IMG/VR virus record: IMGVR_UViG_3300034093_002238
Location: 1-22,317 of that record
Length of the DNA stretch: 22,317 nt
Source of the DNA: a virus
Direction: 5' to 3' (one strand)
A program made the position numbers and the translations under genes. Positions within the stretch are counted from its first letter, which is position 1. Each line of letters starts with the position of its first letter. The notes below the pieces were generated by a model. It was not told where the DNA came from, did not search any database, and saw only the letters and a list, made by a program, of their open reading frames with translations. Shown here piece after piece: positions 4,885 through 17,135 of this stretch.

Positions 4885-5730
4885 ATGGAAAAAAACTATT
4901 ATTTTTTATCTGGGCTTCCTAGAAGTGGAAATACCTTATTATCTGCACTCCTTAATCAAAATCCAGAAATATACAGCAGCCCAATAAGCCCAGTTGCTAC
5001 ATATATGTCTGAGCTATCTAAATATTCATTTATTGAGCAATCAGCAAGAAATAAAGAATATTCTTATCGAACAGACAATGTGATTAAAGAAGTAATAAAT
5101 AGTTTCTACAGCGATGTAGATAAAAAACATATAATAGATAGGGAAAGAACCTGGGGTCTTCCTGATAACTTAGATCTAATAAAAAAACACATAACTCCAA
5201 CACCTAAAATTATTTTTACGGTAAGAGATATTTTAGAAATTATTGCTTCTTTTATTTTACTAGATGAAAATTTTTTAAAAAATGAAGCATTTAAAAAAAA
5301 CCACATATCATTTTCATATAGGTCAGCTTTAGATGTAGCTTGTGATTCTTATATGTCATTAGATGGAAAAATGGATTATGCCTTAAACGCATTGTCCTCA
5401 GCCTTTGCCCCAGAAAATAAAGGCATGTTTCATATAGTTGAATATAATGATTTAGTTTTAAACCCAGAAAAAACAATGAAAGATATTTACAATTTTTTAG
5501 AAATTGATGCCTTTGAACACAACTTTAATAAAATTGAAAAGGTAGAAACAGACGATGATCTTGCAGTTGGACTACCAAAAGACCTACATTCTATAAAAGA
5601 AACGCTATCAAAATCCTTAACTAATTCCGATATATTGTCTGACTATATTAGACATAAATACTCTAATATGGAGTTTTGGCGTACCGATTCATTAATGAAA
5701 ATATACGGCAAAGATTTTACAATTTTTTAA
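4885..5730 (+). CDS. PAPS-dependent sulfotransferase family protein (paralogue A)
   Basis: A 281-residue protein with the two hallmarks of the sulfotransferase fold. The 5'-phosphosulfate loop is at residues 10-19 (GLPRSGNTLL), and the 3'-phosphate-binding region at about 111-123 (FTVRDILEIIASF) carries the conserved Arg and a downstream Ser. The family moves a sulfuryl group from PAPS to a hydroxyl or amine on a glycan, lipid or tyrosine; the acceptor cannot be read here. Length is normal for a soluble bacterial or phage sulfotransferase, with no signal peptide, so it should act in the host cytoplasm. The C-terminal part shares 'YNDLVL.PE.TMK.IY.FLE', 'HNF.KI' and 'Y...KYS.MEFWR' with the product at 8925, showing paralogy. 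There is no Shine-Dalgarno before the ATG. Sulfate donor synthesis may come from the APS kinase at 9764. The family is certain; the target is unknown. Confidence 0.85.
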   Translation: MEKNYYFLSGLPRSGNTLLSALLNQNPEIYSSPISPVATYMSELSKYSFIEQSARNKEYSYRTDNVIKEVINSFYSDVDKKHIIDRERTWGLPDNLDLIKKHITPTPKIIFTVRDILEIIASFILLDENFLKNEAFKKNHISFSYRSALDVACDSYMSLDGKMDYALNALSSAFAPENKGMFHIVEYNDLVLNPEKTMKDIYNFLEIDAFEHNFNKIEKVETDDDLAVGLPKDLHSIKETLSKSLTNSDILSDYIRHKYSNMEFWRTDSLMKIYGKDFTIF

Positions 5731-5771
5731 AAATAACCTTCTTTAGGCTTAAATGCTTAATAAGAGATATT

Positions 5772-5780
5772 TGATATAAT
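5772..5780 (+). promoter_or_regulatory. Promoter with extended -10 (TGATATAAT)
   Basis: In the 77-base gap after the sulfotransferase, TGATATAAT is a perfect TATAAT (5775-5780) with the extended TGn element. No good -35 lies 16-18 bases upstream, as extended -10 promoters allow. Transcription would start near 5787, leaving a leader of about 20 bases with a strong AGGAGG (5795-5800) 7 bases before the ATG at 5808. It would drive the MAH / Fn3-Gly-rich / MAH module and genes beyond. Confidence 0.7.
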
Positions 5781-5807
5781 AGAGATATATACACAGGAGG
5801 TACTACC

Positions 5808-6200
5808 ATGGCACATTGGGCCGAATTAGATGAAAACAATATTGTGACAAGAGTCCTTGTTGGATCAAATGATGATCCAGATGAAGGATATCAATGGTTA
5901 ATTGATAACTTGGGCGGAACTTGGGTAAAGACTTCATATAATGCAGTTGCAGGAAAACGTAGAAATCCTGATACAAATGAGATTACAAATGAAGCAGGAT
6001 TTAGAAAGAATTATGCAGGTATTGGATATTTATATGATGCAACAAAAGATGCATTTATTCCACCAAAGCAGTTTGCTTCATGGGTTTTAAATGAAGAAAC
6101 ATGTATATGGCAAGCTCCAATTGCAAGACCAACTACAGAAGGCAAAATGTATCTATGGAATGAAGAAACAGTTTCATGGGACGAGTTTGATCTAGTTTAA
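5808..6200 (+). CDS. Small aromatic-rich phage protein, MAH family (copy 2)
   Basis: A 130-residue protein with the best ribosome binding site in the window (AGGAGG, 7-base spacer). It shares the family blocks with 1564 and 8000: MAHWAELDENNIVTRVLVGS at the start, WVKTSYNAVAG, FRKNYAGIGYLYDATKDAFI, FASWVLNEETCIWQAP, and YLWNEETVSWDEF at the end. This copy has an extra loop (GKRRNPDTNEITNEAG) between TSYN and the RKNYAG block. Conserved aromatic and acidic residues suggest a compact beta domain; no catalytic triad, metal site or membrane segment is visible. It is the first gene behind a promoter and is followed by a Gly-rich fibre. The role is unknown; a fibre-associated or chaperone function is a guess from its repeated association with Gly-rich fibres. 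Confidence 0.82.
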   Translation: MAHWAELDENNIVTRVLVGSNDDPDEGYQWLIDNLGGTWVKTSYNAVAGKRRNPDTNEITNEAGFRKNYAGIGYLYDATKDAFIPPKQFASWVLNEETCIWQAPIARPTTEGKMYLWNEETVSWDEFDLV

Positions 6201-6228
6201 TAAATAAATTAGGAGTTAGTGACTAACT

Positions 6229-7998
6229 TTGGCAGATAAAAATTTTAAAGTAAAGACTAGCATAACTAGTCCAACTCCTATTGCCCTCACAGAGGGCGGA
6301 ACAGGACAAACTTCTGCTAATAATGCTTTAAATGCAATATTGCCAGTTCAAACATCTGCAGCTAATAAATTTTTACAGTCAGATGGAACATCTACATCTT
6401 GGGTTGCTGCAGCAGTTGTAAATAATGCTACATTTACTGGATCTTCAATTGTTATCCCATCTGGAACAACCGCCGAAAGACCAGCATCTCCAGTAACTGG
6501 AGCAATTAGATTAAATACAACATCTGGAACATTAGAGTTTTATACAGGCACTGCATGGGGATCGATTGCTACTTTTCCACAACCACCAACATCACTTGTT
6601 GCAACAAATGTTGGCACATCTCGTGCATATAATAATGCATCAGCATCTGTAGCATTTACTACAGCAGCTGCAGATGGTGGATCAACAATTACTGGATATA
6701 CAATTACATCAAATCCAGGTTCATTTACTGCAACGGGTTCAACATCTCCAATAGTCGTAACAGGATTACAATCAGCTACTTCATATACATTTACTGGTAC
6801 AGCAACAAATTCAATTGGTTTAAGCACAGTGTCTTCAGCCTCATCTAGTATTACCGCTACTACTGTTCCACAAGCTCCTACTATTGGAACTGCAACTGGT
6901 GGTACAGTAGGGGTTGTCTCAGTGCCATTTACAACAAACGCTACAGGTGGCTCTGCAATCACTGGTTATACAGTTACTTCATCTTCAGGCGTTACTGCTA
7001 CTGGTGCATCTTCTCCTATTACCATAACTGAAACTGTTGGTGGCACATATACCTATACAGTCGTAGCAACTAACGCTAATGGTAACTCTGCAGCATCTGC
7101 TGCTTCTAACTCTGTAACATCATCATTTACTTTCTCTGTTGATTACCTTGTTGTAGCAGGTGGAGGAGGAGCAGGAGGTGGACTATATAATTCCAAATAT
7201 CCTAGCGGTAACGCTGGTGGTGGCGGTGCTGGTGGTCTGCGTTCAAGTGTTTCCCCAACTGGAGGTGGAGGCAGTGCTGAATCAACTTTAACATTAACTC
7301 CAGGAATTAATTATGCGGTAACAGTAGGAGCAGGTGGCACGGGTACTGCTGGCAACGGTTCTGGATTCGGTGGCGATGGAACTAATTCTTCATTTAGCGG
7401 AAGTGGTATTTCAACAATAACCTCTACTGGTGGTGGTGGTTCGGTTAATTACAATACGTCACCATCACGAAACGGAGGAAGCGGTGGTGGCGGTAGCGCT
7501 GGTGGAGGAGGACAAGCTGGTTCGGGAACTTCAGGACAAGGATATGGTGGCGGTAACAAAAATCAATCCTCAGGTGGCGGTGGTGGCGCAGGAGGAGGGG
7601 GAGCAACTGGTAGACCTGCTGGAAGTAGCGCAGGAGGAGTTGGTGTTTCCAACAATATAAGTGGGTCATCTATATTTTATGCGGGTGGCGGGGGTGGCGG
7701 TGCCGATGATTCAGGTGGATCTGGTGGTAATGGTGGTGGAGGTGGAGGTGCGAGGGTCAATGGTGGTTATTCAGCGGGTAATGGAGGAACCAATTTAGGT
7801 GGCGGTGCTGGTGGTGGCGCAGGCAGTACTAATCCTAGTCAGGTTAATGGAGGAAATGGTGGAAGCGGTGTTGTAATACTTCGTTACCCAAATACTAAAA
7901 CAATTACAATTGGTGCAGGATTAACAGGATCAACTGTAACCTCTGGAATCTACAAGGTGACAACAATTACTGCTGGCACTGGAAATGTGAGTTGGTAA
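6229..7998 (+). CDS. Modular tail fibre: docking peptide, Fn3-like repeats, glycine-rich tip
   Basis: A 589-residue protein. The start is TTG at 6229: an in-frame TGA lies at 6220-6222, and the N-terminus MADKNFKVKTSITSP matches the paralogues at 10866 and 12521. AGGAG (6211-6215) lies 13 bases upstream, unusually far. Domains: N-terminal tag 1-10; 'GGTGQT' segment 23-28 and shaft to about 115; two fibronectin-III-like repeats at about 117-212 and 216-298 ('SRAYNN.A.SVAFT', 'TGYT.TS.PG..TATG..SPI.VTGL...T.YTF...A.N..G'); Gly-rich tip about 308-545; and a final 'GSGVVILRYPNTKTITIGAG' to residue 589. The extra C-terminal strand after 'ILRY' is not seen in the paralogues. A surface adhesin role is inferred from this architecture. 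The next gene begins one base after the stop. Confidence 0.8.
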   Translation: MADKNFKVKTSITSPTPIALTEGGTGQTSANNALNAILPVQTSAANKFLQSDGTSTSWVAAAVVNNATFTGSSIVIPSGTTAERPASPVTGAIRLNTTSGTLEFYTGTAWGSIATFPQPPTSLVATNVGTSRAYNNASASVAFTTAAADGGSTITGYTITSNPGSFTATGSTSPIVVTGLQSATSYTFTGTATNSIGLSTVSSASSSITATTVPQAPTIGTATGGTVGVVSVPFTTNATGGSAITGYTVTSSSGVTATGASSPITITETVGGTYTYTVVATNANGNSAASAASNSVTSSFTFSVDYLVVAGGGGAGGGLYNSKYPSGNAGGGGAGGLRSSVSPTGGGGSAESTLTLTPGINYAVTVGAGGTGTAGNGSGFGGDGTNSSFSGSGISTITSTGGGGSVNYNTSPSRNGGSGGGGSAGGGGQAGSGTSGQGYGGGNKNQSSGGGGGAGGGGATGRPAGSSAGGVGVSNNISGSSIFYAGGGGGGADDSGGSGGNGGGGGGARVNGGYSAGNGGTNLGGGAGGGAGSTNPSQVNGGNGGSGVVILRYPNTKTITIGAGLTGSTVTSGIYKVTTITAGTGNVSW

Positions 7999-7999
7999 A

Positions 8000-8353
8000 A
8001 TGGCACACTACGCTTTTTTAGATGAAAACAATATCGTTACAGAAGTTATTGTAGGTATTAATGAGACAGAACTTATTGAAGGTTTAGATACAGAAATTTG
8101 GTACGGAAACTTCCGTGGCCAGGTATGCAAGCGTACCTCTTACAATGGCAACATTCGCAAGAACTACGCTGGTATTGGCTACACCTACGATGAAGATAGA
8201 GACGCATTTATATCGCCAAAACCCAAAGAATACCCTTCTTGGATATTAGATAATAATATATGTAACTGGATACCACCAATTCCAAAACCTGACTCGGGTC
8301 TCTGGGAATGGGATGAAGAAACAATTTCTTGGAAAGAGCAAGATCCTGAGTGA
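8000..8353 (+). CDS. Small aromatic-rich phage protein, MAH family (copy 3)
   Basis: A 117-residue protein starting MAHYAFLDENNIVTEVIVGI, one base after the stop of the Gly-rich fibre, so probably translated by reinitiation. The family blocks are present: CKRTSYNGNIRKNYAGIGYT, YPSWILDNNICNWIPPIPKP and WEWDEETISWKEQDPE. It lacks the inserts of the 1564 and 5808 copies and is the shortest. Parts of its DNA use more GC-rich codons (ttccgtggccag, tacaatggcaac) than the neighbouring sulfotransferase genes, which hints at a separate origin for the cassette. Its stop (TGA) overlaps the GTG start of the sulfotransferase-like gene by four bases. No function is known. Confidence 0.8.
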   Translation: MAHYAFLDENNIVTEVIVGINETELIEGLDTEIWYGNFRGQVCKRTSYNGNIRKNYAGIGYTYDEDRDAFISPKPKEYPSWILDNNICNWIPPIPKPDSGLWEWDEETISWKEQDPE

Positions 8354-8883
8354 GAGATCTTTTAATTACCACAGGATTTCCTCGCAGTGGTAACACATAT
8401 TTAAATTATTCTTTTAGATCCTTGTATTACCCTGAAGAAAATACAAGACTTAATGCCCATAGCGTTTCTTATATGGAAAAACATGATCATTTATTTGTAC
8501 CGTTTCGCAACCCGCAGGACAGCATATTATCTTGGCACAACTATCCATCAAATGGTCAATTAGAAGAAGACATAAAATACTATATTAGATTTTATAGTCA
8601 TGTAATGAATAACTTAAACAAAGTAACACTTATGAATTTTGATTACTTTACTAAAGATCTAGAGTATATAAAAAACAAAGTTAAAGGGTCTATAGGCATT
8701 GAAAGTGTATATGATGTCAGTGATGAAGAAATAAAAAGATGTATGCTAAACGACAAAAAAAATAAAAATCTTCCCTTACCAGTTATTAATGATATTTCTA
8801 TAATTAAAGAGACATTGTTAAATACAGAAAGCTTTAAAGAATGCCTTGTTATATATAATAATTTATTAAAGGCTAGCTCTTAG
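8350..8883 (+). CDS. Short sulfotransferase-like P-loop protein
   Basis: A 177-residue protein with a GTG start overlapping the previous stop (GTGA). The N-terminus, MRDLLITTGFPRSGNTYLNY, contains the phosphosulfate-binding loop GFPRSGNTYL (9-18), and residues 51-62 (PFRNPQDSILSW) match the 3'-phosphate region 'R.P.D...SW' of sulfotransferases. It is about 100 residues shorter than the two full-length copies here and lacks their 'YNDLVL.PE' and 'MEFWR' segments, so it is a separate, compact branch and not a truncated copy. Whether it transfers sulfate or only binds nucleotide is open. Its place between an MAH fibre protein and the second sulfotransferase, ahead of an APS kinase, fits a sulfation cluster. 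The family call is fairly sure; the substrate is unknown. Confidence 0.7.
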   Translation: MRDLLITTGFPRSGNTYLNYSFRSLYYPEENTRLNAHSVSYMEKHDHLFVPFRNPQDSILSWHNYPSNGQLEEDIKYYIRFYSHVMNNLNKVTLMNFDYFTKDLEYIKNKVKGSIGIESVYDVSDEEIKRCMLNDKKNKNLPLPVINDISIIKETLLNTESFKECLVIYNNLLKASS

Positions 8884-8889
8884 ATATGC

Positions 8890-8918
8890 TAGACACTATT
8901 ACATATAAATGATACAAT
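8890..8918 (+). promoter_or_regulatory. Promoter TAGACA-N17-TACAAT with extended -10, leaderless gene
   Basis: TAGACA (8890-8895, 5 of 6 to TTGACA), a 17-base spacer, and TACAAT (8913-8918) preceded by TGA, an extended -10. The ATG of the next gene is at 8925, seven bases after the -10 end, where transcription should start. There is no Shine-Dalgarno, so the mRNA is predicted to be leaderless. It gives the sulfotransferase/APS kinase genes their own promoter. Confidence 0.75.
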
Positions 8919-8924
8919 GGCTTT

Positions 8925-9761
8925 ATGTCAAAAACAATTCATTATTTAGCAGGGCTTCCAAGAAGTGGAAATACTTTACTTTCCTCCCTATTAAATCAAA
9001 ATCCTGATTTTTATAGTAGCCCATTAAGCTCACTTAGTGAAATTGTATATAGAGCTCATGAAGTATTATTGCATGAAGAGCAGGCTAATAGAAGCTTAGA
9101 AGATAAAGAAAGATTAAAATCAATTATTCATAATATGCCTCAATATTACTATAAAGGAATAGATAAACCAATAATTTTTGATCGTGAAAAAGCATGGGGT
9201 ACTCCGTATAATATGCAATTGATTAAATATTTAATTAATCCTAACCCAAAAGTATTATTTACTGTCAGAGATATTACAGAAATTATATCTTCATATATAT
9301 TGTTAAATTCTGAAAAAATGAAAAACGATTTTTATAATGCAGACTTTTATCCTAGATTTTATTTAAATGAGCAGGATGCATTTTGTGAATTTATTATGAG
9401 GCCAGGTGGAGATTTAGATAAAGTAATTCTTTCTGCTTCTTCTGCAATTAACCCTGACTATAAAGATAATCTACATTTAATTGAGTATAATGATTTAGTC
9501 TTAAAACCAGAATTAACTATGAAAAAGATATATGACTTTTTAGAGTTAAAACCATTTAAACACAACTTTGATAAGATTAAAAAATTAGAAGAAGATTTTG
9601 ATGAACACATAGGATTTCCAAAAAATATGCATGATGTAAGGTCAAAATTAGGATTTTCTAAAAATAATGCAAAAGAAATACTTTCTGAATACATATACAA
9701 TAAGTACTCAGGAATGGAATTTTGGAGAGAAGACTCTAAAATTATAACAAAGGAAATGTAA
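8925..9761 (+). CDS. PAPS-dependent sulfotransferase family protein (paralogue B)
   Basis: A 278-residue protein, clearly paralogous to the product at 4885. It carries the phosphosulfate loop GLPRSGNTLL (10-19), 'LNQNP..YSSP' just after, 'IFDREKAWG' (84-92), the 3'-phosphate region FTVRDITEIISSY (112-124), and the C-terminal 'EYNDLVLKPELTMKKIYDFLE' and 'YSGMEFWRED' blocks. It should use PAPS and act in the host cytoplasm; no signal peptide or membrane segment is seen. Differences from paralogue A lie mainly in the central 45-80 and 130-165 regions, where acceptor specificity usually resides, so the two may act on different hydroxyls of one acceptor or on different targets. It has its own leaderless-type promoter and is followed two bases later by the APS-kinase fusion gene. 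Confidence 0.86.
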   Translation: MSKTIHYLAGLPRSGNTLLSSLLNQNPDFYSSPLSSLSEIVYRAHEVLLHEEQANRSLEDKERLKSIIHNMPQYYYKGIDKPIIFDREKAWGTPYNMQLIKYLINPNPKVLFTVRDITEIISSYILLNSEKMKNDFYNADFYPRFYLNEQDAFCEFIMRPGGDLDKVILSASSAINPDYKDNLHLIEYNDLVLKPELTMKKIYDFLELKPFKHNFDKIKKLEEDFDEHIGFPKNMHDVRSKLGFSKNNAKEILSEYIYNKYSGMEFWREDSKIITKEM

Positions 9762-9763
9762 TT

Positions 9764-10525
9764 ATGATCATTCAAATTATGGGACTTCCAGGCTCTGGAA
9801 AAACGGAACTAGCAAAAGCACTCAAAGAGCGTATTAATGCTATACATCTTAATGCAGATGAGGTACGTGCAACAGTTAACTCGGATCTTGGTTTTAGCCC
9901 AGAAGATCGTTTAGAGCAAGCACGACGTATGGGAGAGATGGCAAGACTAATTGCTAAGCAAGGCGTTGCTCCAGTAATAGTAGATTTTATATGTCCTACT
10001 GATTTAACTCGTACCGCTTTTGGTAAGCCAGATATCTTGGTATTTATGGATACAATTGCTGACGGTAGATTTGAAGATACAAATAGAATGTTTGAACGTC
10101 CTGATAATGCTGATGTATCATTTATTAGCCATAACTTAGATGCAGAAGAAAAAACATCTCATATAATTGACAAGTTTAGTCTTCACGATTGGTCAGCTCC
10201 AACAACTCTAATGCTTGGCCGATATCAGCCATGGCATGAAGGACACCATGCTCTTTATAAAGAGGCGGGGAAAAGAACAGACCAGGTACTTCTTGGTGTT
10301 CGTAACACATACAACACAAGCGAAAAGGATCCACTTAAGTTTGATCAGGTAAAAGAATACATTGCCAAGGACGAATTTATGGACGGTGCATTAGTATTAA
10401 GACTACCAAACATCACTAATATTGTATACGGTAGAGATGTAGGATACAAGATTGAACAAGTAGATTTGGGGGCAGACATTCATGCTATTTCGGCTACTGA
10501 AAAACGCAAGCAGTTGGGTATTTAA
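9764..10525 (+). CDS. APS kinase (CysC-like) fused to a small nucleotidylyltransferase domain
   Basis: A 253-residue fusion. Residues 1-145 match adenylylsulfate kinase, which phosphorylates APS with ATP to give PAPS: Walker A GLPGSGKT (7-14), LNADEVRATV (29-38), SDLGFSPEDR and E..RR.GE.A.L (40-62), and 'VDFICPT' (73-79, cf. 'AFISP' in CysC). Residues about 146-253 form a minimal nucleotidylyltransferase: GRYQPWHEGH (152-161) with the HxGH signature, GRDVG (223-227) and ISATEKR (242-248). HxGH, GRDxG and ISxTxxR occur in this order in ATP sulfurylase too, but the domain is far shorter and 'GRYQPWH' is closer to NMN-adenylyltransferase-like proteins. It follows a sulfotransferase by two bases, so PAPS supply is the likely job. 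The kinase call is strong; the C-terminal substrate is unresolved. Confidence 0.85.
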   Translation: MIIQIMGLPGSGKTELAKALKERINAIHLNADEVRATVNSDLGFSPEDRLEQARRMGEMARLIAKQGVAPVIVDFICPTDLTRTAFGKPDILVFMDTIADGRFEDTNRMFERPDNADVSFISHNLDAEEKTSHIIDKFSLHDWSAPTTLMLGRYQPWHEGHHALYKEAGKRTDQVLLGVRNTYNTSEKDPLKFDQVKEYIAKDEFMDGALVLRLPNITNIVYGRDVGYKIEQVDLGADIHAISATEKRKQLGI

Positions 10526-10550
10526 ACAATTAGAAAAATCAGGAAAAGCA

Positions 10551-10619
10551 ATGAATGATGCTGAAGACCGAATGGTAGCAGCAATGTTTAAGAAGAAAGA
10601 TAAAGATGACAGTAACTAG
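10551..10619 (+). CDS. Tiny possible ORF (22 aa)
   Basis: ATG at 10551 with AGGA 7 bases upstream encodes 22 residues beginning MNDAEDRMVAAMFKKKDKDD. The frame is open upstream to another ATG at 10482, which would give 45 residues with a helical start (MLFRLLKNASSWVFKQLEKS) overlapping the APS-kinase gene end by 44 bases. It runs 14 bases into the DUF2061 gene. The amphipathic, Lys/Asp-rich sequence could be a genuine short peptide that couples the two genes, or simply a chance frame. Confidence 0.35.
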   Translation: MNDAEDRMVAAMFKKKDKDDSN

Positions 10620-10812
10620 GGCCAGATCTTTTGCCAAGGCATTAAGTTATCGCATATGGGGAACACTTTCTTCATTTGTTGTTGCCTATGTTATAACAAG
10701 AAGTGCCAGCCTGTCAGGTGCAATTGCCTTTTGGGAAACGGTAGTTAAAGTATTTATCTACTACGCACATGAGCGTGGCTGGAATAAGGTTAAATGGGGC
10801 AGGAAAGCTTAA
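10606..10812 (+). CDS. DUF2061 small membrane protein
   Basis: A 68-residue protein with the DUF2061 pattern: a basic N-terminus with 'RSFAKALSYRIWGTLSSFVVAYVIT' (7-31), then 'SGAIAFWETVVKVFIYYAHERGWNKVKWG' (37-65). Two predicted membrane helices lie at about 17-32 and 37-52, followed by the characteristic 'K...YY.HER.W' end. The domain has no established biochemical function. It lies directly after the APS-kinase fusion, close behind the sulfotransferases; a link to sulfate activation is a plausible inference, for instance as a membrane partner. As an inner-membrane protein in a structural-gene region it is out of place as a virion component, which supports a role in infected-cell metabolism. 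Confidence 0.8.
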   Translation: MTVTRARSFAKALSYRIWGTLSSFVVAYVITRSASLSGAIAFWETVVKVFIYYAHERGWNKVKWGRKA

Positions 10813-10823
10813 TAATACTTTTC

Positions 10824-10832
10824 TGATATAAT
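10824..10832 (+). promoter_or_regulatory. Promoter with extended -10 (TGATATAAT)
   Basis: TGATATAAT is identical to the element at 5772-5780. No clear -35 is present 17 bases upstream. Transcription would begin near 10839, leaving a leader of about 27 bases with AGGGG at 10847-10851 ahead of the TTG at 10866. It would drive the two tandem Fn3/Gly-rich fibre genes. Confidence 0.7.
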
Positions 10833-10865
10833 TATCATATACCAATAGGGGATATGTGAACCAAA

Positions 10866-12521
10866 TTGTCAAATAAAGATTTCAAGGTTAAGAATAAACT
10901 ACAAGTAGGCGGAATCCTTGCGTCAGGTCCAGTTGTTTCAGATGCATATGGAAATCTAGATTCAACCTCTTCAATTGCAACACAATACGGCGGAACAGGA
11001 ACAACAACCTCTCCTACATCAGGACAAATACTATATTCATCTGCTGGTACTACTTATGCCCCCGCAACATTAGCAGGGCTACCTGGAACATATGCGGTAG
11101 GTAATACTGCATCTCGTCCAGGATCTCCATCATTAGGACAAATTTATTCAAATACAGAAACTGGTTATATTGAAGTTTACACATCTTCAGGTTGGTCACA
11201 ACTTGGAGTTATTCCTTTAACCCCTACAATTGGATCTGCAACAAATGTTGGTACATCTCGTGCATATAATAATGGAGCAGCAACAGTTGCATTTACACCA
11301 GCAGCTGGTGGAGGCCTTGCGTCAACGTATACTGCAACATCTTCTCCTGGAGGATTTACTGGATCAGCATCTTCTTCGCCAGTAACTGTTACTGGTTTAT
11401 TATCTGCAACAGCATATACTTTTACAGTAATTGCAACAAATGGTTATGGAAATGCTACAGCAACATCACCAACATCTTCAATAACTGCAACAACAGTTCC
11501 ACAAGCTCCAACTATTGGGGCTGTCACAGATAGAGTTTCTTCAGCTGGAGCAGTTAACGTAGCATTTACTACTAATGCTACTGGAGGATCAGCAATTACT
11601 GGATACACCGCAACATCTTCTCCTGGAGGAATAACAGGAACTGGTAGCTCATCTCCAATAATTGTTTCAGGATTAACAGTTGGTACAGCTTATACATTTA
11701 CAGTTACAGCAACAAATGCTAATGGAACTTCTGCATCATCTAGTGCATCATCATCTGTAACACCAACAGCATTTATTGCAACTGGTGGAACAGAAACAAC
11801 AGTAGGTTCATATAAAATACATACTTTTACAGGCAATGGAACATTTGCTGTTAGTGCTGGATCTAAATCTGTAGAATATTTAATTGTTGGTGGTGGTGGA
11901 CATTCAAATGGAACATGTTGTAATGGCGGCGGTGGAGGCGGCGGAGTTTTAACTGGATCTTCTAGTATTTCATCTGGAGCTTCTTTACCAGTAGTAGTTG
12001 GTGGTGCTGGGGCAAAGAATAGTGGCAGGGCACCAGATTCTTCATGGAATTCAATTACAGCACTTGGAGGCGGATATGGTGGATACAGTAACAATAATGG
12101 CGGAGCTGGAGGTTCCTCTGGAGGTGATTCGGAAACTGGACGTAGCACAGGTACAGCTGGAACATCAGGTCAAGGAAATGCTGGAGGTGGAAGCCAGAGT
12201 AGATCTGGTATGCCAGGCGGTGGCGGAGGAGGCGGAGGAAAGGCAACTGCTGGAAGCCTAGGATATAATGAATATGGCGGTGGAAATGGGTATGGAGGCG
12301 CTGGAGGAAATGGAACGGCTTATGATTATTCTGGAACATCTGTTTATTATGGTGCTGGCGGCGGTGGTGGAGCATGGTATGGATATCAAATAGGTGCCGA
12401 TGGAACAGGAAATAGTAGTGGTGCTGCAAATAGAGGTTCAGGCGCTCAAGGTAATAGCGCAATTAATGGAGGCGGACATGATCCTGGATCAGGAATAGTT
12501 ATTTTGAGGTATATTAACTAA
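10866..12521 (+). CDS. Modular tail fibre: docking peptide, Fn3-like repeats, glycine-rich tip
   Basis: A 551-residue protein starting at TTG 10866. The in-frame ATG at 10854 is followed at once by TGA, and the N-terminus MSNKDFKVKNKLQVGG aligns with MADKNFKVK (6229) and MADKDFKIKNKL (12521). Domains: N-terminal tag 1-12; shaft with 'QYGGTGTTTSPTSGQILYSS' and 'GNTASRPGSPSLGQIYSNTE' (40-100) and 'GYIEVYTSSGWSQLGVIP' (100-117); Fn3-like repeats at about 118-210 and 214-301; a strand region ending VEYLIVGGGG (about 310-344); and a Gly-rich tip to 'GSGIVILRYIN'. The tip holds an unusual Cys pair (GTCCNGG). It is the close tandem neighbour of the 12521 gene, joined by TAATG, and nearly collinear with it, showing duplication. 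Adhesin function is inferred. Confidence 0.8.
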   Translation: MSNKDFKVKNKLQVGGILASGPVVSDAYGNLDSTSSIATQYGGTGTTTSPTSGQILYSSAGTTYAPATLAGLPGTYAVGNTASRPGSPSLGQIYSNTETGYIEVYTSSGWSQLGVIPLTPTIGSATNVGTSRAYNNGAATVAFTPAAGGGLASTYTATSSPGGFTGSASSSPVTVTGLLSATAYTFTVIATNGYGNATATSPTSSITATTVPQAPTIGAVTDRVSSAGAVNVAFTTNATGGSAITGYTATSSPGGITGTGSSSPIIVSGLTVGTAYTFTVTATNANGTSASSSASSSVTPTAFIATGGTETTVGSYKIHTFTGNGTFAVSAGSKSVEYLIVGGGGHSNGTCCNGGGGGGGVLTGSSSISSGASLPVVVGGAGAKNSGRAPDSSWNSITALGGGYGGYSNNNGGAGGSSGGDSETGRSTGTAGTSGQGNAGGGSQSRSGMPGGGGGGGGKATAGSLGYNEYGGGNGYGGAGGNGTAYDYSGTSVYYGAGGGGGAWYGYQIGADGTGNSSGAANRGSGAQGNSAINGGGHDPGSGIVILRYIN

Positions 12522-14302: not shown

Positions 14303-15316
14303 ATGGGTACTATGAATCTAGTACAAAAATCAATATCTAATGGAGGAAATTTAGTTCCTCTTATTATTCCCGCCAATATTTCAGACGGAATGGGATTAAT
14401 GAATCCATCTATTTTTATTGATGATGATGGAGATATTTTAGTAAATATTCGCAGAGTTAACTATACACTTTATCATTCAGAAAAAGATCAAAACTTCTTT
14501 AGTCCTTGGGGACCATTGTCATATTTACATCCTGAAAAAGATCAAAGATTAGTTACAACCAACTATCTTTGTTTATTAGATAGTGATTTAAATATAACTA
14601 AGTTTACTAAGGTTGACTATTCTAAGTTTGATGTACCTCCAATCTGGGAGTTTGTTGGCGAAGAAGATTGTAGAATTACTCAGTGGGATGGAGACTACTA
14701 TCTTATTGGTGTTCGCCGTGATACAACTCCAAACGGGCAAGGCCGTATGGAATATTCTAAGATTGAATTAGACAAAGAAAAATGGACTGCAACAGAAATA
14801 CAGCGTGTAAGAATTCCAGCTCCAATTGATGAGGCAACCTCATATTGTGAAAAAAACTGGATGCCAATACTAGATCAGCCGTATCATTTTGTTAAATGGG
14901 CAATGCCTACAGAAGTAGTTAAGGCCAATCCAGATAAGTCAGAATGTGAACAAGTTGTTGTTAAATCTACTCCTGCCGCTCCAATTGATCAAAGAGGCGG
15001 AACTAATGTTATTAAATGGGGAGAGTATTATATTACAGTTACACATGAGGTAAAACTGTGGAAGAATTACCTTGAACAAAAAGACTCAATTTATAGACAT
15101 AGAGTTATTGTATGGGATAAGGATTTCAACTTTGTCGGGCTAAGCAAATCGTTTGCATTCCTTGATACCCCAATTGAGTTTTGCGTAGGTGCAGCAATTA
15201 AAAATGATAATTTATTACTAAGCTTTGGCGTTCAGGACAATGCAGCATTTATATTAGAAGTTCCAGCAAATGTTGTAAATGAAATTATTACGGAGGCAAT
15301 GGCATATGGCAATTAG
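14303..15316 (+). CDS. Five-bladed beta-propeller glycosidase/phosphorylase-like protein
   Basis: A 337-residue protein. Repeated blade-like segments suggest the five-bladed propeller of GH43/GH130-type enzymes: NPSIFIDDDGDILVNIRRVN (34-53), WEFVGEEDCRITQWDGDYYL (115-134) with a 'GEED.R' motif like the conserved 'EDPR' of GH130, EKNWMP (183-188), RGGTNVIKWGEYYITVTHEV (231-250), and EFCVGAAIKNDNLLLSFGVQ (292-311). The fold assignment is reasonable; activity is not proven, as catalytic residues cannot be fixed from sequence alone. It could be a glycosidase, a glycan phosphorylase or a glycan-binding protein. It opens a four-gene cassette with a TPR protein, a methyltransferase and a GT25-like enzyme. 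The start may be ATG 14303 or 14312. A weak TTAAAT lies 6 bases before ATG 14303. Confidence 0.65.
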   Translation: MGTMNLVQKSISNGGNLVPLIIPANISDGMGLMNPSIFIDDDGDILVNIRRVNYTLYHSEKDQNFFSPWGPLSYLHPEKDQRLVTTNYLCLLDSDLNITKFTKVDYSKFDVPPIWEFVGEEDCRITQWDGDYYLIGVRRDTTPNGQGRMEYSKIELDKEKWTATEIQRVRIPAPIDEATSYCEKNWMPILDQPYHFVKWAMPTEVVKANPDKSECEQVVVKSTPAAPIDQRGGTNVIKWGEYYITVTHEVKLWKNYLEQKDSIYRHRVIVWDKDFNFVGLSKSFAFLDTPIEFCVGAAIKNDNLLLSFGVQDNAAFILEVPANVVNEIITEAMAYGN

Positions 15317-15866
15317 AGAATTAACAATAGCCCTGGCTTCAGACCCATTTAATGTTCAGATTAATTTTGATCTAGCACAAGCCTACGATGCACAACAGCA
15401 ATATGCATCTGCAGCTGGCTTTTATTTGAGGGCGGCAGAGTTTGGATACAAGACTCATCCATTAATTACATACACATCATTACTTAGAATGGCTATATGT
15501 TGGACACATCAGGGCGATAGAAATAAAACGGTTCATAATAATATCATGCAAGCAATAGCATATTTGCCAAATAGACCAGAGGCTTATTTTCTTTTATCAA
15601 GAATCAACGAACGCAATAAGATGTATCAAGACTGCTACACATTTGCTGAAATGGGATTACTGTATGCCACACATACTTTCCAACAACCACTTCCAGGATA
15701 TGTTGATTATAATGGCGCATACTGCCTAATGTTTGAAAAAGCGGTGTCAGGATGGTGGCTTGGCAAAAAGGAAGAAAGCAAGTCCTTATTCCAACACTTA
15801 TTAGATGACCATAAAATGGCTCCAGAATATGTTACTGGATGTATTAACAATTTGAAGTTGTACTAA
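15306..15866 (+). CDS. Tetratricopeptide-repeat (TPR) protein
   Basis: A 186-residue protein. The frame is open to an ATG at 15279, but the ATG at 15306 has CGGAGG at 15291-15296 (9-base spacer), overlaps the previous gene by only 11 bases, and yields the natural start MAIRELTIALASDPFNVQIN, so it is preferred. TPR-like helix pairs are visible: 'ELTIALASDPFNVQINFDLAQAYDAQQQYASAAGFYLRAAEFG' (about 4-46), 'NIMQAIAYLPNRPEAYFLLSRINERNKMYQDCYTFAEMGL' (about 79-118), and 'WWLGKKEESKSLFQHLL' near the end. TPR proteins are scaffolds; fused or adjacent TPR units commonly serve glycosyltransferases by presenting protein substrates. That fits the GT25-like enzyme two genes downstream, but the partner is inferred. 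It is soluble, with no signal peptide. Confidence 0.75.
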   Translation: MAIRELTIALASDPFNVQINFDLAQAYDAQQQYASAAGFYLRAAEFGYKTHPLITYTSLLRMAICWTHQGDRNKTVHNNIMQAIAYLPNRPEAYFLLSRINERNKMYQDCYTFAEMGLLYATHTFQQPLPGYVDYNGAYCLMFEKAVSGWWLGKKEESKSLFQHLLDDHKMAPEYVTGCINNLKLY

Positions 15867-15867
15867 T

Positions 15868-16398
15868 ATGTTTCCTAATTGGTTTAAAGATGTAGAAAAG
15901 TATTTCCGCCATGTGCCAAATGAGCCACTTCGTGCTTTGCAAATTGGCACATATACTGGAGATGCTACAGAATGGCTATTAAGTAACAGAGAAATACAAT
16001 ATCTTCATGATGTAGATACTTGGGGCGGAAGCGAAGAAGTTGCTCATGAATCATTAGATTTTAATTCAGTAGAAAGCTACTATGACTCTAGGTTTAATGA
16101 TACTCGTATTTATAAATACAAAATGACAAGCGACGAGTACTTTGCTTCAAATAAATCACAGTTTAATTTTATATACATTGATGGAGATCATACAGCATTA
16201 CAGACATCACTAGATGGATTAAATGCATTTAGATTGCTTGAATCAGGCGGTGTAATGGCTTTTGATGATTACCTATGGAACTACAATGGCAACCGCTTCT
16301 TAGAGCCTAAGAGAGGCGTTGACGGCTTCCTAGAGGTATGTAAGGATCAGTACACGGTCATAGAGTCTGGATATCAAATGTGGATTAAGAAATGTTAG
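15868..16398 (+). CDS. Class I SAM-dependent methyltransferase (Methyltransf_24-like)
   Basis: A 176-residue protein. The glycine-containing SAM loop is at 23-38 (ALQIGTYTGDATEWLL, motif I with 'IG.Y.GD'), an acidic motif II-like turn is at HDVDTWGG (47-54), and 101-109 (FIYIDGDHT) plus 127-135 (GGVMAFDDY) form the 'YIDG.H...............L..GG....DDY' signature of the Methyltransf_24 group. These enzymes typically O-methylate sugars or small molecules, often within glycan synthesis clusters. The length is compact but complete. The gene starts one base after the TPR stop and overlaps the GT25-like gene by 7 bases, so the three form one translation unit. Methylation of a sugar added by the neighbouring glycosyltransferase is a reasonable inference; the acceptor is unknown. 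Confidence 0.8.
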   Translation: MFPNWFKDVEKYFRHVPNEPLRALQIGTYTGDATEWLLSNREIQYLHDVDTWGGSEEVAHESLDFNSVESYYDSRFNDTRIYKYKMTSDEYFASNKSQFNFIYIDGDHTALQTSLDGLNAFRLLESGGVMAFDDYLWNYNGNRFLEPKRGVDGFLEVCKDQYTVIESGYQMWIKKC

Positions 16399-17135
16399 CA
16401 AACGCATGTTTTGAAATATTTCATACAGACAGTGGAAATGAATTTAGAAACCAATCTTATAATAATGTTTTAAATGAAATGGCGGGAATACCAAGATTAA
16501 GCTCACCTACAATATACTTAAATACAGCAGAAAAGGTAGATGAATTTTTAAACGATACACCTGAATTTAGGGTAAATACTGTAGAAGATTATTGTCAGCC
16601 AGGAGAAACATTTCCACCTAGCTCTGGAGTAATTGGTGTATGGGCAAGCAATTACACAGCATATAAAAACTTTTTAGAAACAGACAAGGACATACTTATT
16701 TTGTTTGAAGACGACATTGTTCTTAGTAAAAATTTTACAAATATACTAAACTCATATTTAATGGAATTGCCAGAAGGCTGGGAATTTTTTTCACCGTTTG
16801 TCCCAGACGACTCTTTCTTTGCCTATAATGAAATGAAACATTCTTTTAATAATGACTACCTTACTTGCCGCTCTTATCAGCAATGGTCATGCGCTACATA
16901 TGTGGTAAATAGGGTGGGAGCTAAGAGGGCTATAGAAAATATAGAGTCTATGGGAATAACAGCCCCTATTGATTGGTACATATTTAATTTTAGAATGAAG
17001 CAAGAAGACAGTCAAATTAGGTTTAACACCTATACAATTAAGCCAAATTCATATAGGCCAGTCAAGCTTTTATTGGAAGCCGCAGCCTATAGCTCAATTC
17101 ATAAAGGAAGCACTGAGGAGCTTAATAGACTATGA
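16392..17135 (+). CDS. GT25-like glycosyltransferase
   Basis: A 247-residue protein with the layout of glycosyltransferase family 25. The segment SSGVIGVWASNYTAYKNFLE (77-96) corresponds to the 'GEIGC..SH...........' region, ILILFEDDIVLSKNF (101-115) carries the metal/nucleotide-sugar acidic motif 'EDD' (106-108), and WSCATYVVNRVGAKRAIE (165-182) matches the conserved 'A.Y..S..GA...' segment; APIDWYIF (191-198) is a second acidic site. GT25 includes lipooligosaccharide galactosyltransferases and the collagen hydroxylysine galactosyltransferases of animals. The next gene encodes a collagen-like fibre, which makes a virion protein acceptor attractive, though host surface glycan is equally possible. 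It overlaps the methyltransferase by 7 bases. Confidence 0.75.
   Translation: MLANACFEIFHTDSGNEFRNQSYNNVLNEMAGIPRLSSPTIYLNTAEKVDEFLNDTPEFRVNTVEDYCQPGETFPPSSGVIGVWASNYTAYKNFLETDKDILILFEDDIVLSKNFTNILNSYLMELPEGWEFFSPFVPDDSFFAYNEMKHSFNNDYLTCRSYQQWSCATYVVNRVGAKRAIENIESMGITAPIDWYIFNFRMKQEDSQIRFNTYTIKPNSYRPVKLLLEAAAYSSIHKGSTEELNRL

Follow-up and report, generated by a model that had tools for sequence, protein, structure and literature searches.

The animal synthases of 3'-phosphoadenosine 5'-phosphosulfate (PAPS), PAPSS1 and PAPSS2, combine on one chain an N-terminal adenosine 5'-phosphosulfate (APS) kinase with a C-terminal HxGH adenylyltransferase and serve sulfotransferases, and the same source describes a role of HxGH in the ATP sulfurylase domain (PMC11697783, available sections). 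Sulfotransferases are encoded in phage genomes too, and their function there has been called unclear (PMC10580990, available sections). Here, we describe a locus in a stretch of viral DNA, IMG/VR record IMGVR_UViG_3300034093_002238 (hereafter the window, i.e., all 22,317 bases of a linear record that is probably a fragment), in which gene 9764 (9764..10525, + strand; genes are named by their first position) encodes a 253-residue fusion of an APS-kinase-like domain with an HxGH nucleotidyltransferase (NT) domain, between fibre genes and next to sulfotransferase genes. We read the locus as a phage-borne sulfation unit in which 9764, judged from its sequence and gene company, would make PAPS from sulfate by itself, with NT replacing ATP sulfurylase, and give this reading a probability of roughly 60%.

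Specifically, the HxGH domain would join sulfate to ATP to yield APS (the job of ATP sulfurylase), the P-loop kinase would phosphorylate APS to PAPS, and the sulfotransferases 4885, 8350 and 8925 would place the sulfuryl group on an acceptor, for which a virion-tail or host-surface protein or glycan is the likeliest candidate. The linkage of donor enzyme and sulfotransferases as a unit is supported by our gene counts, the linkage of NT to sulfate genes is shown in several bacteria and archaea, and PAPS is the likely product of 9764; we infer the formation of APS by NT from its context across phages, bacteria and archaea. A preliminary description of this DNA had left out that the C-terminal domain may itself supply the APS.

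The fusion protein 9764 and the sulfotransferases around it

The picture of five genes interleaved with fibre genes, drawn in the preliminary description, held up: the open reading frames (ORFs) 4885-5730, 8350-8883, 8925-9761, 9764-10525 and 10606-10812 are all present on the + strand, each beginning where it had been placed, and domain searches confirmed the neighbouring fibre genes. Genes 8925, 9764 and 10606 are consecutive, with intergenic gaps of 2 and 80 bases; the last (10606..10812, + strand, 68 residues) encodes a DUF2061 protein (63.6 bits vs. the Pfam cut-off of 23.1), a family that partners the kinase in phages.

Genes 4885 (4885..5730, 281 residues, 48 viral relatives) and 8925 (8925..9761, 278 residues, 36 viral relatives), both on the + strand and of the same phage family (phrog_27463), are firmly predicted to be sulfotransferases. 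They score 62.5 and 57.5 bits, respectively, against Sulfotransfer_3 (PF13469, cut-off 27) and 52.7 and 44.8 bits against Sulfotransfer_1 (PF00685, cut-off 22), and thus bear out the full-length assignment made earlier, for which a profile search had been proposed as the check. Among solved structures, protein-tyrosine sulfotransferases come closest to 8925 in sequence, at a very weak E of 0.005, a likeness that would be compatible with a protein acceptor and proves nothing. The short gene 8350 (8350..8883, + strand, 177 residues) matched no sulfotransferase family in Pfam and further profile scans. It carries TTGFPRSGNTYL and PFRNPQDSILSW, sulfotransferase-like motifs of the PRSGNT and RNPxDS type (here PRSGNT and FRNPQDS) that we take to resemble the two PAPS-holding sites of sulfotransferases, and both are kept in all 4 of its viral-contig relatives (63-74% identity). 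Its earlier label as sulfotransferase-like therefore has motifs and relatives in its favour but no family match. Separately, short genes of 170-230 residues with PRSG-like and RDP-like motifs, most of them under the Pfam cut-off, are present in kinase-bearing phage records (L188, L189, L191-L195; loci are given as L numbers throughout).

The kinase domain of 9764 (residues 1-141; 9764..10186, + strand) has the P-loop GLPGSGKT at residues 7-14 and matches APS_kinase (PF01583) with 58.8 bits vs. 21.1, over residues 2-85 only. In a VIA-align search with an AlphaFold2 model (mean pLDDT 87.4), APS kinases, matching over residues 1-143, held ranks 1-30 (Z 16.2-18.4, root-mean-square deviation, rmsd, 1.6-2.3 over 127-146 residues), two of these being the APS-kinase-like domain of fungal ATP sulfurylase, and gluconate kinase came next (Z 15.3). 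A solved APS kinase holds APS through Asp480, Arg483, Phe492 and Arg497, which contact ribose, phosphosulfate and adenine (PMC4373884, available sections); D32, R35, F44 and R49 of 9764 match them, and the position of R49 is substituted in L128, L129, L130 and L133. The DGD motif reads NAD, i.e., the two aspartates are not both kept. The preliminary description's "APS-kinase fusion" is apt for about the first 141 residues, which are APS-kinase-like, but the protein stays under the curated apsK cut-off (below) and continues, in its second half, as an HxGH nucleotidyltransferase.

This NT domain (residues 147-253; 10202..10522, + strand) shows GRYQPWHEGH at 10217-10246, YGRDVGY at 10427-10447 and ISATEKR at 10487-10507. 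It scores 19.1 bits against CTP_transf_like, under the cut-off of 21, and the residues of HxGH and GRxVG are invariant across 19 aligned fusions. Modelled alone (mean pLDDT 80.8), NT adopts a fold of the PPAT/NMNAT/GCT type (best Z 9.4; the nicotinamide mononucleotide (NMN) adenylyltransferase, NMNAT, 1f9a at Z 8.2); ATP sulfurylase was absent among the matches listed in these fold searches, which counts neither for nor against the reading. Against the curated models of NadM, the archaeal/bacterial NMN adenylyltransferase, NT stays below the cut-offs (PRK01153, 25.3 vs. 127 bits; TIGR01527, 20.6 vs. 181.2 bits). A tryptophan-bearing segment, whose conserved tryptophan presumably contacts NMN, was found in 10/10 archaeal NadM compared and is missing from 12/12 NT sequences, where YGRxVGY stands in that region.

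Gene company of the kinase and NT domains in bacteria and archaea

The strongest single argument that NT works with APS comes from haloarchaeal plasmids, which encode NT in fusion with a canonical APS kinase. When plasmids were searched with the L125 fusion, 211 records matched, 10 of them across 80% or more of its length; among the 20 matches listed, 11 regions were opened, 9 with usable annotation near the match. Nine of the 20 are haloarchaeal, and in all eight that were read (the ninth, H32, is annotation-free) an annotated sulfotransferase lies at most two genes from the same fusion, with a YqcI/YcgG gene after the fusion/sulfotransferase in 7/8 and on the other side in L525. Three of these fusions, when translated, proved to be a complete APS kinase with an FTG(I/V)D lid and DGD, followed by an NT with the motifs GRWQPLHDGH, GR(D/E)VGY and ISGTETR. 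Both kinases tested exceed the apsK cut-off (158 and 148 vs. 138.7 bits), and the one sulfotransferase tested is above the PF13469 cut-off.

Kinase and NT also accompany sulfate reduction genes. Five marine alphaproteobacterial genomes (L139-L143) share the order sulfite reductase, CysH, DUF2061, kinase, NT (by eye), in which kinase and NT are separate overlapping genes that end a cysI-cysH operon; CysH and sulfite reductase exceed their NCBIfam cut-offs in L142, and the kinase is found in 5/6 genomes searched of this family. CysH requires APS or PAPS. In these five genomes, Sat was present in one, on another contig in a surface-sugar-like locus; CysN above cut-off was found in 0/5, and the sole PF01507 match above cut-off is the operon CysH, CysD not being seen. 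Hence, another enzyme probably makes APS or PAPS there. We also considered DUF2061 as a general marker of sulfur genes and rejected it, as it occurs in 59/289 alphaproteobacterial genomes; of 30 DUF2061 loci fetched, the kinase was found in three, which all belong to the cys-operon family (L253, L256 and L265), and by eye no sulfur gene was noticed in the other 27, in several of which long antisense ORFs hid genes.

SAR11 bacteria have core aprAB and incomplete sulfate pathways (PMC12636525, 2025, available sections), and aprABM with sat, the usual arrangement, is reported from some SAR116 genomes (PMC8547437, likewise in part). Among 397 SAR11 genomes drawn from the family of L130, 278 matched the kinase/NT profile, 245 had AprB, 225 had both, and 18 had Sat above cut-off; 233 of the 245 AprB genomes show no Sat. 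AprB and kinase/NT are associated with an odds ratio of 21 (p 5e-34), a figure that ignores phylogeny and completeness, and we prefer the counts. CysN above cut-off was found in 0/7 SAR11 genomes tested. Mutual exclusion of Sat and the kinase/NT pair was examined and rejected, 14/18 Sat genomes also having the pair (Fisher p 0.60). Twenty SAR11 loci were picked for reading (in L228 the pair had been missed by the ORF caller): kinase and NT are separate adjacent genes in 16/20, and in 6/20 (L226, L227, L238, L242, L243 and L245) aprB follows a few genes after the pair, across a gene that is AprM-like, with no profile confirmation; AprB and AprA are above cut-offs in L227 and L238. In 12 other loci the pair adjoins organosulfur-type genes resembling dimethylsulfoniopropionate demethylase or methanethiol oxidase (by eye; two tested were below cut-off), and in L237 a sulfotransferase adjoins the kinase. 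The pair is thus a natural candidate for the missing sulfate step of SAR11.

Two further features of SAR11 loci were observed. A pyruvate-kinase-like gene lies at or near the fusion in 7/9 loci of the set L128-L136 (L129, L130 and L132-L136; PF00224 confirmed in L132, the others by eye), and such a gene also adjoins the classical Sat of G001 (L175; by eye). Beside the kinase-NT gene of L129 lies, at 10764-12065, a fusion of phosphoenolpyruvate mutase with a cytidylyltransferase, which suggests phosphonate in the same cluster.

Across genome contigs, one scan turned up 41 loci, of which 19 (L146-L164) match the NT half alone and were read as archaeal NadM. Pairing of kinase and sulfotransferase was seen in Rhizobium (one ORF) and a planctomycete as well as in SAR11 and on the haloarchaeal plasmids: a Pfam-confirmed sulfotransferase is in the same ORF as the kinase in L125 and is the next called gene in L126, L130, L144 and L237. 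A permease of the TauE/SafE family adjoins the kinase in phage locus L041 (order: sulfotransferase, fusion, TauE/SafE permease, DUF2061) and is two genes off in L130. Two contigs from bacterial metagenome-assembled genomes with the fusion (L124, Chitinophagaceae; L138, Synechococcus) have phage-like gene content by eye.

Linkage in phages and the fibre locus

Baiting with the window genes at 8000 and 14303, which are neither kinase nor sulfotransferase, provided a control set of 160 fibre loci. Both genes were present in four, the kinase only in none, a sulfotransferase only in three and neither in 153 (Fisher p 1.3e-6, the loci being partly non-independent: at least one contig was picked up by both baits (L424 and L449), L442 and L443 are arranged alike, and the kinase of L479 is cut by the contig end). 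All 4/4 kinase-bearing control loci have a sulfotransferase one to three genes away vs. 3/156 of the kinase-free loci; hence, a lack of co-occurrence in related phages, which the preliminary description had named as grounds for giving up its proposal, is not what we find. Starting from the sulfotransferases, the kinase was in the fetched flanks of 3/36 loci of relatives of 8925 (L081, L094 and L114) and 4/48 of relatives of 4885 (L327, L328, L332 and L349), while relatives of the short type of 8350 have the same kinase two genes away in 3/4 loci (L182-L184), in a window-like gene order. Starting from the fusion, viral contigs gave at least 599 matching stretches, the best 80 of which were kept as kinase loci: DUF2061 is matched in 79/80 and is the immediate downstream gene in 68/80, and in L041 and L073 a sulfotransferase adjoins the kinase. 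Some of the 80 carry WhiB-like genes (by eye) and may therefore come from actinobacterial phages.

In the window, the unit is flanked on both sides by fibre genes with Gly_rich_2, fn3, collagen and Laminin_G domains and tail PHROGs. All on the + strand, these include two fn3 plus glycine-rich fibre proteins of phrog_2295 (6229..7998 and 10866..12521) and an accessory fibre-locus protein (phrog_7759; 8000..8353, the control bait at 8000), which overlaps the start of 8350. Sulfotransferases lie near glycine-rich genes in clear excess in one set only (29/52 vs. 13.9 expected), the other sets giving 9/38 vs. 7.2, 5/6 vs. 4.9, 6/7 vs. 3.7 and 0/11 vs. 0.3, and the same neighbour counts show no tendency of the kinase to adjoin glycine-rich genes. 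Of the dedicated virion- or surface-modification module proposed previously, the linkage of donor enzyme and transferases stands, but fibres as its target are not supported. When the window was compared with phage records by megablast, no match came up.

Several other genes of these loci deserve mention. Between fibres at 14303-17135, the window encodes a weak GH130-like protein (below cut-off), a TPR protein, a Methyltransf_24 and a GT25 glycosyltransferase; the same gene order is visible in L442 and L459, and since it recurs there, fibres or host glycans may be glycosylated or methylated as well. A gene of about 240 residues of the PEWYK/IPDWYKD type (kinship by eye; no Pfam match for the two copies tested) lies near sulfotransferase and kinase genes in L182 (6603-7322), L327 (4384-5103), L442 (2854-3576), L459 (7301-8026) and L186 (609-1319), and L187, a kinase-bearing phage record, has a tryptophan-halogenase-like gene (PF04820) at 3-848. 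In L114, a free-standing kinase of 128 residues (11596-11979) is downstream of three 2-oxoglutarate-oxygenase-like genes (by eye) and a sulfotransferase.

Competing explanations and known systems

A number of observations weigh against 9764 as a self-sufficient PAPS synthase. On the kinase side, 9764 reaches 63 bits against the curated apsK model TIGR00455, below its cut-off of 138.7; the lid motif FTG(I/L/V)(D/S) is present in 0/83 fused proteins among L001-L117, 9764 included, and FTGxD in 0/19 rows of the fusion alignment A2; and lid closure is essential in one studied APS kinase (PMC4373884, in part). On the NT side, the nearest domains by sequence are NMN adenylyltransferases (profile E 1.9e-10, hhalign probability 99.4), and PF01747 (Sat) is not listed for 9764 at E <= 0.1. 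Sat from two genomes has RNxxHxxH, GR(D/K)HA and ISG(T/K), which follow one another as GRYQPWHEGH, YGRDVGY and ISAT do in NT, a likeness that is suggestive only, because hhalign shows zero Sat homology (probability 2.8 against a two-sequence Sat profile).

Gene company adds to these points. A sulfotransferase was found in only 9/80 of the best kinase loci by our own, uncalibrated models (built from 10, 7 and 2 sequences); 7/80 carry both sulfotransferase motifs (by regular expression), and a single-sequence search with the window's full-length proteins found one in 1/80. Whole records for 50 of the 80 contain Sulfotransfer_3 at E <= 0.001 in 13 and above the PF13469 cut-off in only 4, several of the matches being short proteins of 170-230 residues with PRSG-like and RDP-like motifs. 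For the most part, the kinase of the close phage relatives has DUF2061 as its companion, with no sulfotransferase nearby. Eight cultured-phage records match the fusion. In the four read (Clavibacter phage 33 and the Stenotrophomonas/Xanthomonas phages DLP_6, Bhz60 and AhaSv), it lies near NADAR-domain, MazG-like, topoisomerase, ligase or helicase-loader genes, and no sulfotransferase is annotated within 6-7 kb of it; since these contexts differ, the kinase is not tied to fibre loci. The fusion of L128 sits in a surface-sugar-like cluster with no sulfotransferase in the stretch read (by eye), and the absences in marine alphaproteobacteria and SAR11 are soft, as the genomes may be incomplete.

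The most serious alternative, albeit an unlikely one in our view, is that only the kinase half serves sulfation, with APS supplied by the host and NT in another or a regulatory role. The resemblance of NT to NMNAT would fit, as would the kinase of L114, which lacks NT and is four genes from a sulfotransferase. However, host supply is doubtful in SAR11, with Sat above cut-off absent in 379/397 genomes and CysN in 7/7 tested; the invariance of HxGH and GRxVG in 19 fusions argues for catalysis by NT; and in the cys operon NT is a gene of its own adjoining the kinase. Less probable still is a salvage enzyme for NAD or nucleotides, a reversed NadR (kinase plus NMN adenylyltransferase) whose sulfotransferase neighbour is incidental. 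The closeness of NT to NMN adenylyltransferases and a gene annotated with a NADAR domain upstream in Bhz60 point that way, but the tryptophan segment kept in 10/10 NadM is gone from 12/12 NT, the kinase fold is APS-kinase-like, and in phages, bacteria and archaea alike sulfur or sulfotransferase genes are repeatedly found as neighbours.

We hold it to be very improbable that 9764 activates a sugar for glycosylation of fibres or host glycans (kinase plus nucleotidyltransferase, HldE-like). HxGH nucleotidyltransferases of the same fold (GCT, HldC) do activate sugars and polyols, the cluster of L128 looks surface-sugar-like by eye, and the window has its GT25 gene; yet the kinase domain is nearest to APS kinases, the APS kinase of haloarchaeal members is above the curated cut-off, and by eye the cys and apr loci show no sugar genes beside the pair. 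Least probable is an auxiliary metabolic gene for assimilatory sulfate reduction of the host, the usual annotation of viral cysC and one listed without validation (PMC12713726, available sections), given that the linked fibre-locus genes are sulfotransferases and that no PAPS or sulfite reductase family was among the window proteins scanned (a few small ORFs lay outside the scan).

Returning to 9764 as a PAPS synthase, the wider proposal is that NT represents a third, NMNAT-like kind of ATP sulfurylase, without sequence kinship to Sat and CysDN, that would fill the sulfate-to-APS step in SAR11 and the cys operon and serve haloarchaeal sulfation, and that phages would have acquired as a self-sufficient PAPS synthase of 253 residues; we give it about even chances. 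Neither a kinase-NT fusion nor a third ATP sulfurylase was found described in the open-licence full texts searched. If true, phages could sulfate virion or host-surface molecules even where the host makes no PAPS. Phage sulfotransferases, called unclear in function (PMC10580990, in part), would gain a source of their donor and a pathway that can be tested; some of the viral "cysC" genes now filed under assimilatory sulfate reduction (PMC12713726, in part) may serve sulfation; and the SAR11 kinase/NT pair could link APS to sulfate, ATP and PAPS, which makes it a candidate for a published gap (PMC12636525, in part). Enzymatic sulfation, too, would profit from a domain of about 115 residues that activates sulfate.

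Compared with known systems, the 9764 kinase shares with APS kinase CysC (PF01583, TIGR00455) the P-loop, the DxxR...GFxxEDR core and the fold, but it has no lid motif, reads NAD in place of DGD and falls below the apsK cut-off. Sat (PF01747) has the same proposed reaction and motif order as NT, with no detectable sequence homology to it, and CysDN we take to be unrelated. NadM is the closest sequence relative of NT, from which the latter differs by lacking the tryptophan-bearing segment, by YGRxVGY in that region and by its gene company. The sulfotransferases of cyanophages and OM43 phages are likewise Sulfotransfer_3 proteins in phages, and the window's have relatives in S-SRM01 and S-SKS1; unlike in the window, a linked donor-making gene is not described for them in the available sections of PMC10580990. 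Finally, compared with PAPSS1/2, 9764 is much shorter (253 residues vs. 623 in hPAPSS1), it ends in an NMNAT-like minidomain that has no PF01747, and its kinase is without the lid motif; Foldseek aligned its model to the PAPS synthase 1x6v loosely, over 267 columns (rmsd 13.5). The domain order of 9764 nonetheless matches that of the bifunctional PAPS synthase, with the second activity suggested by gene context.

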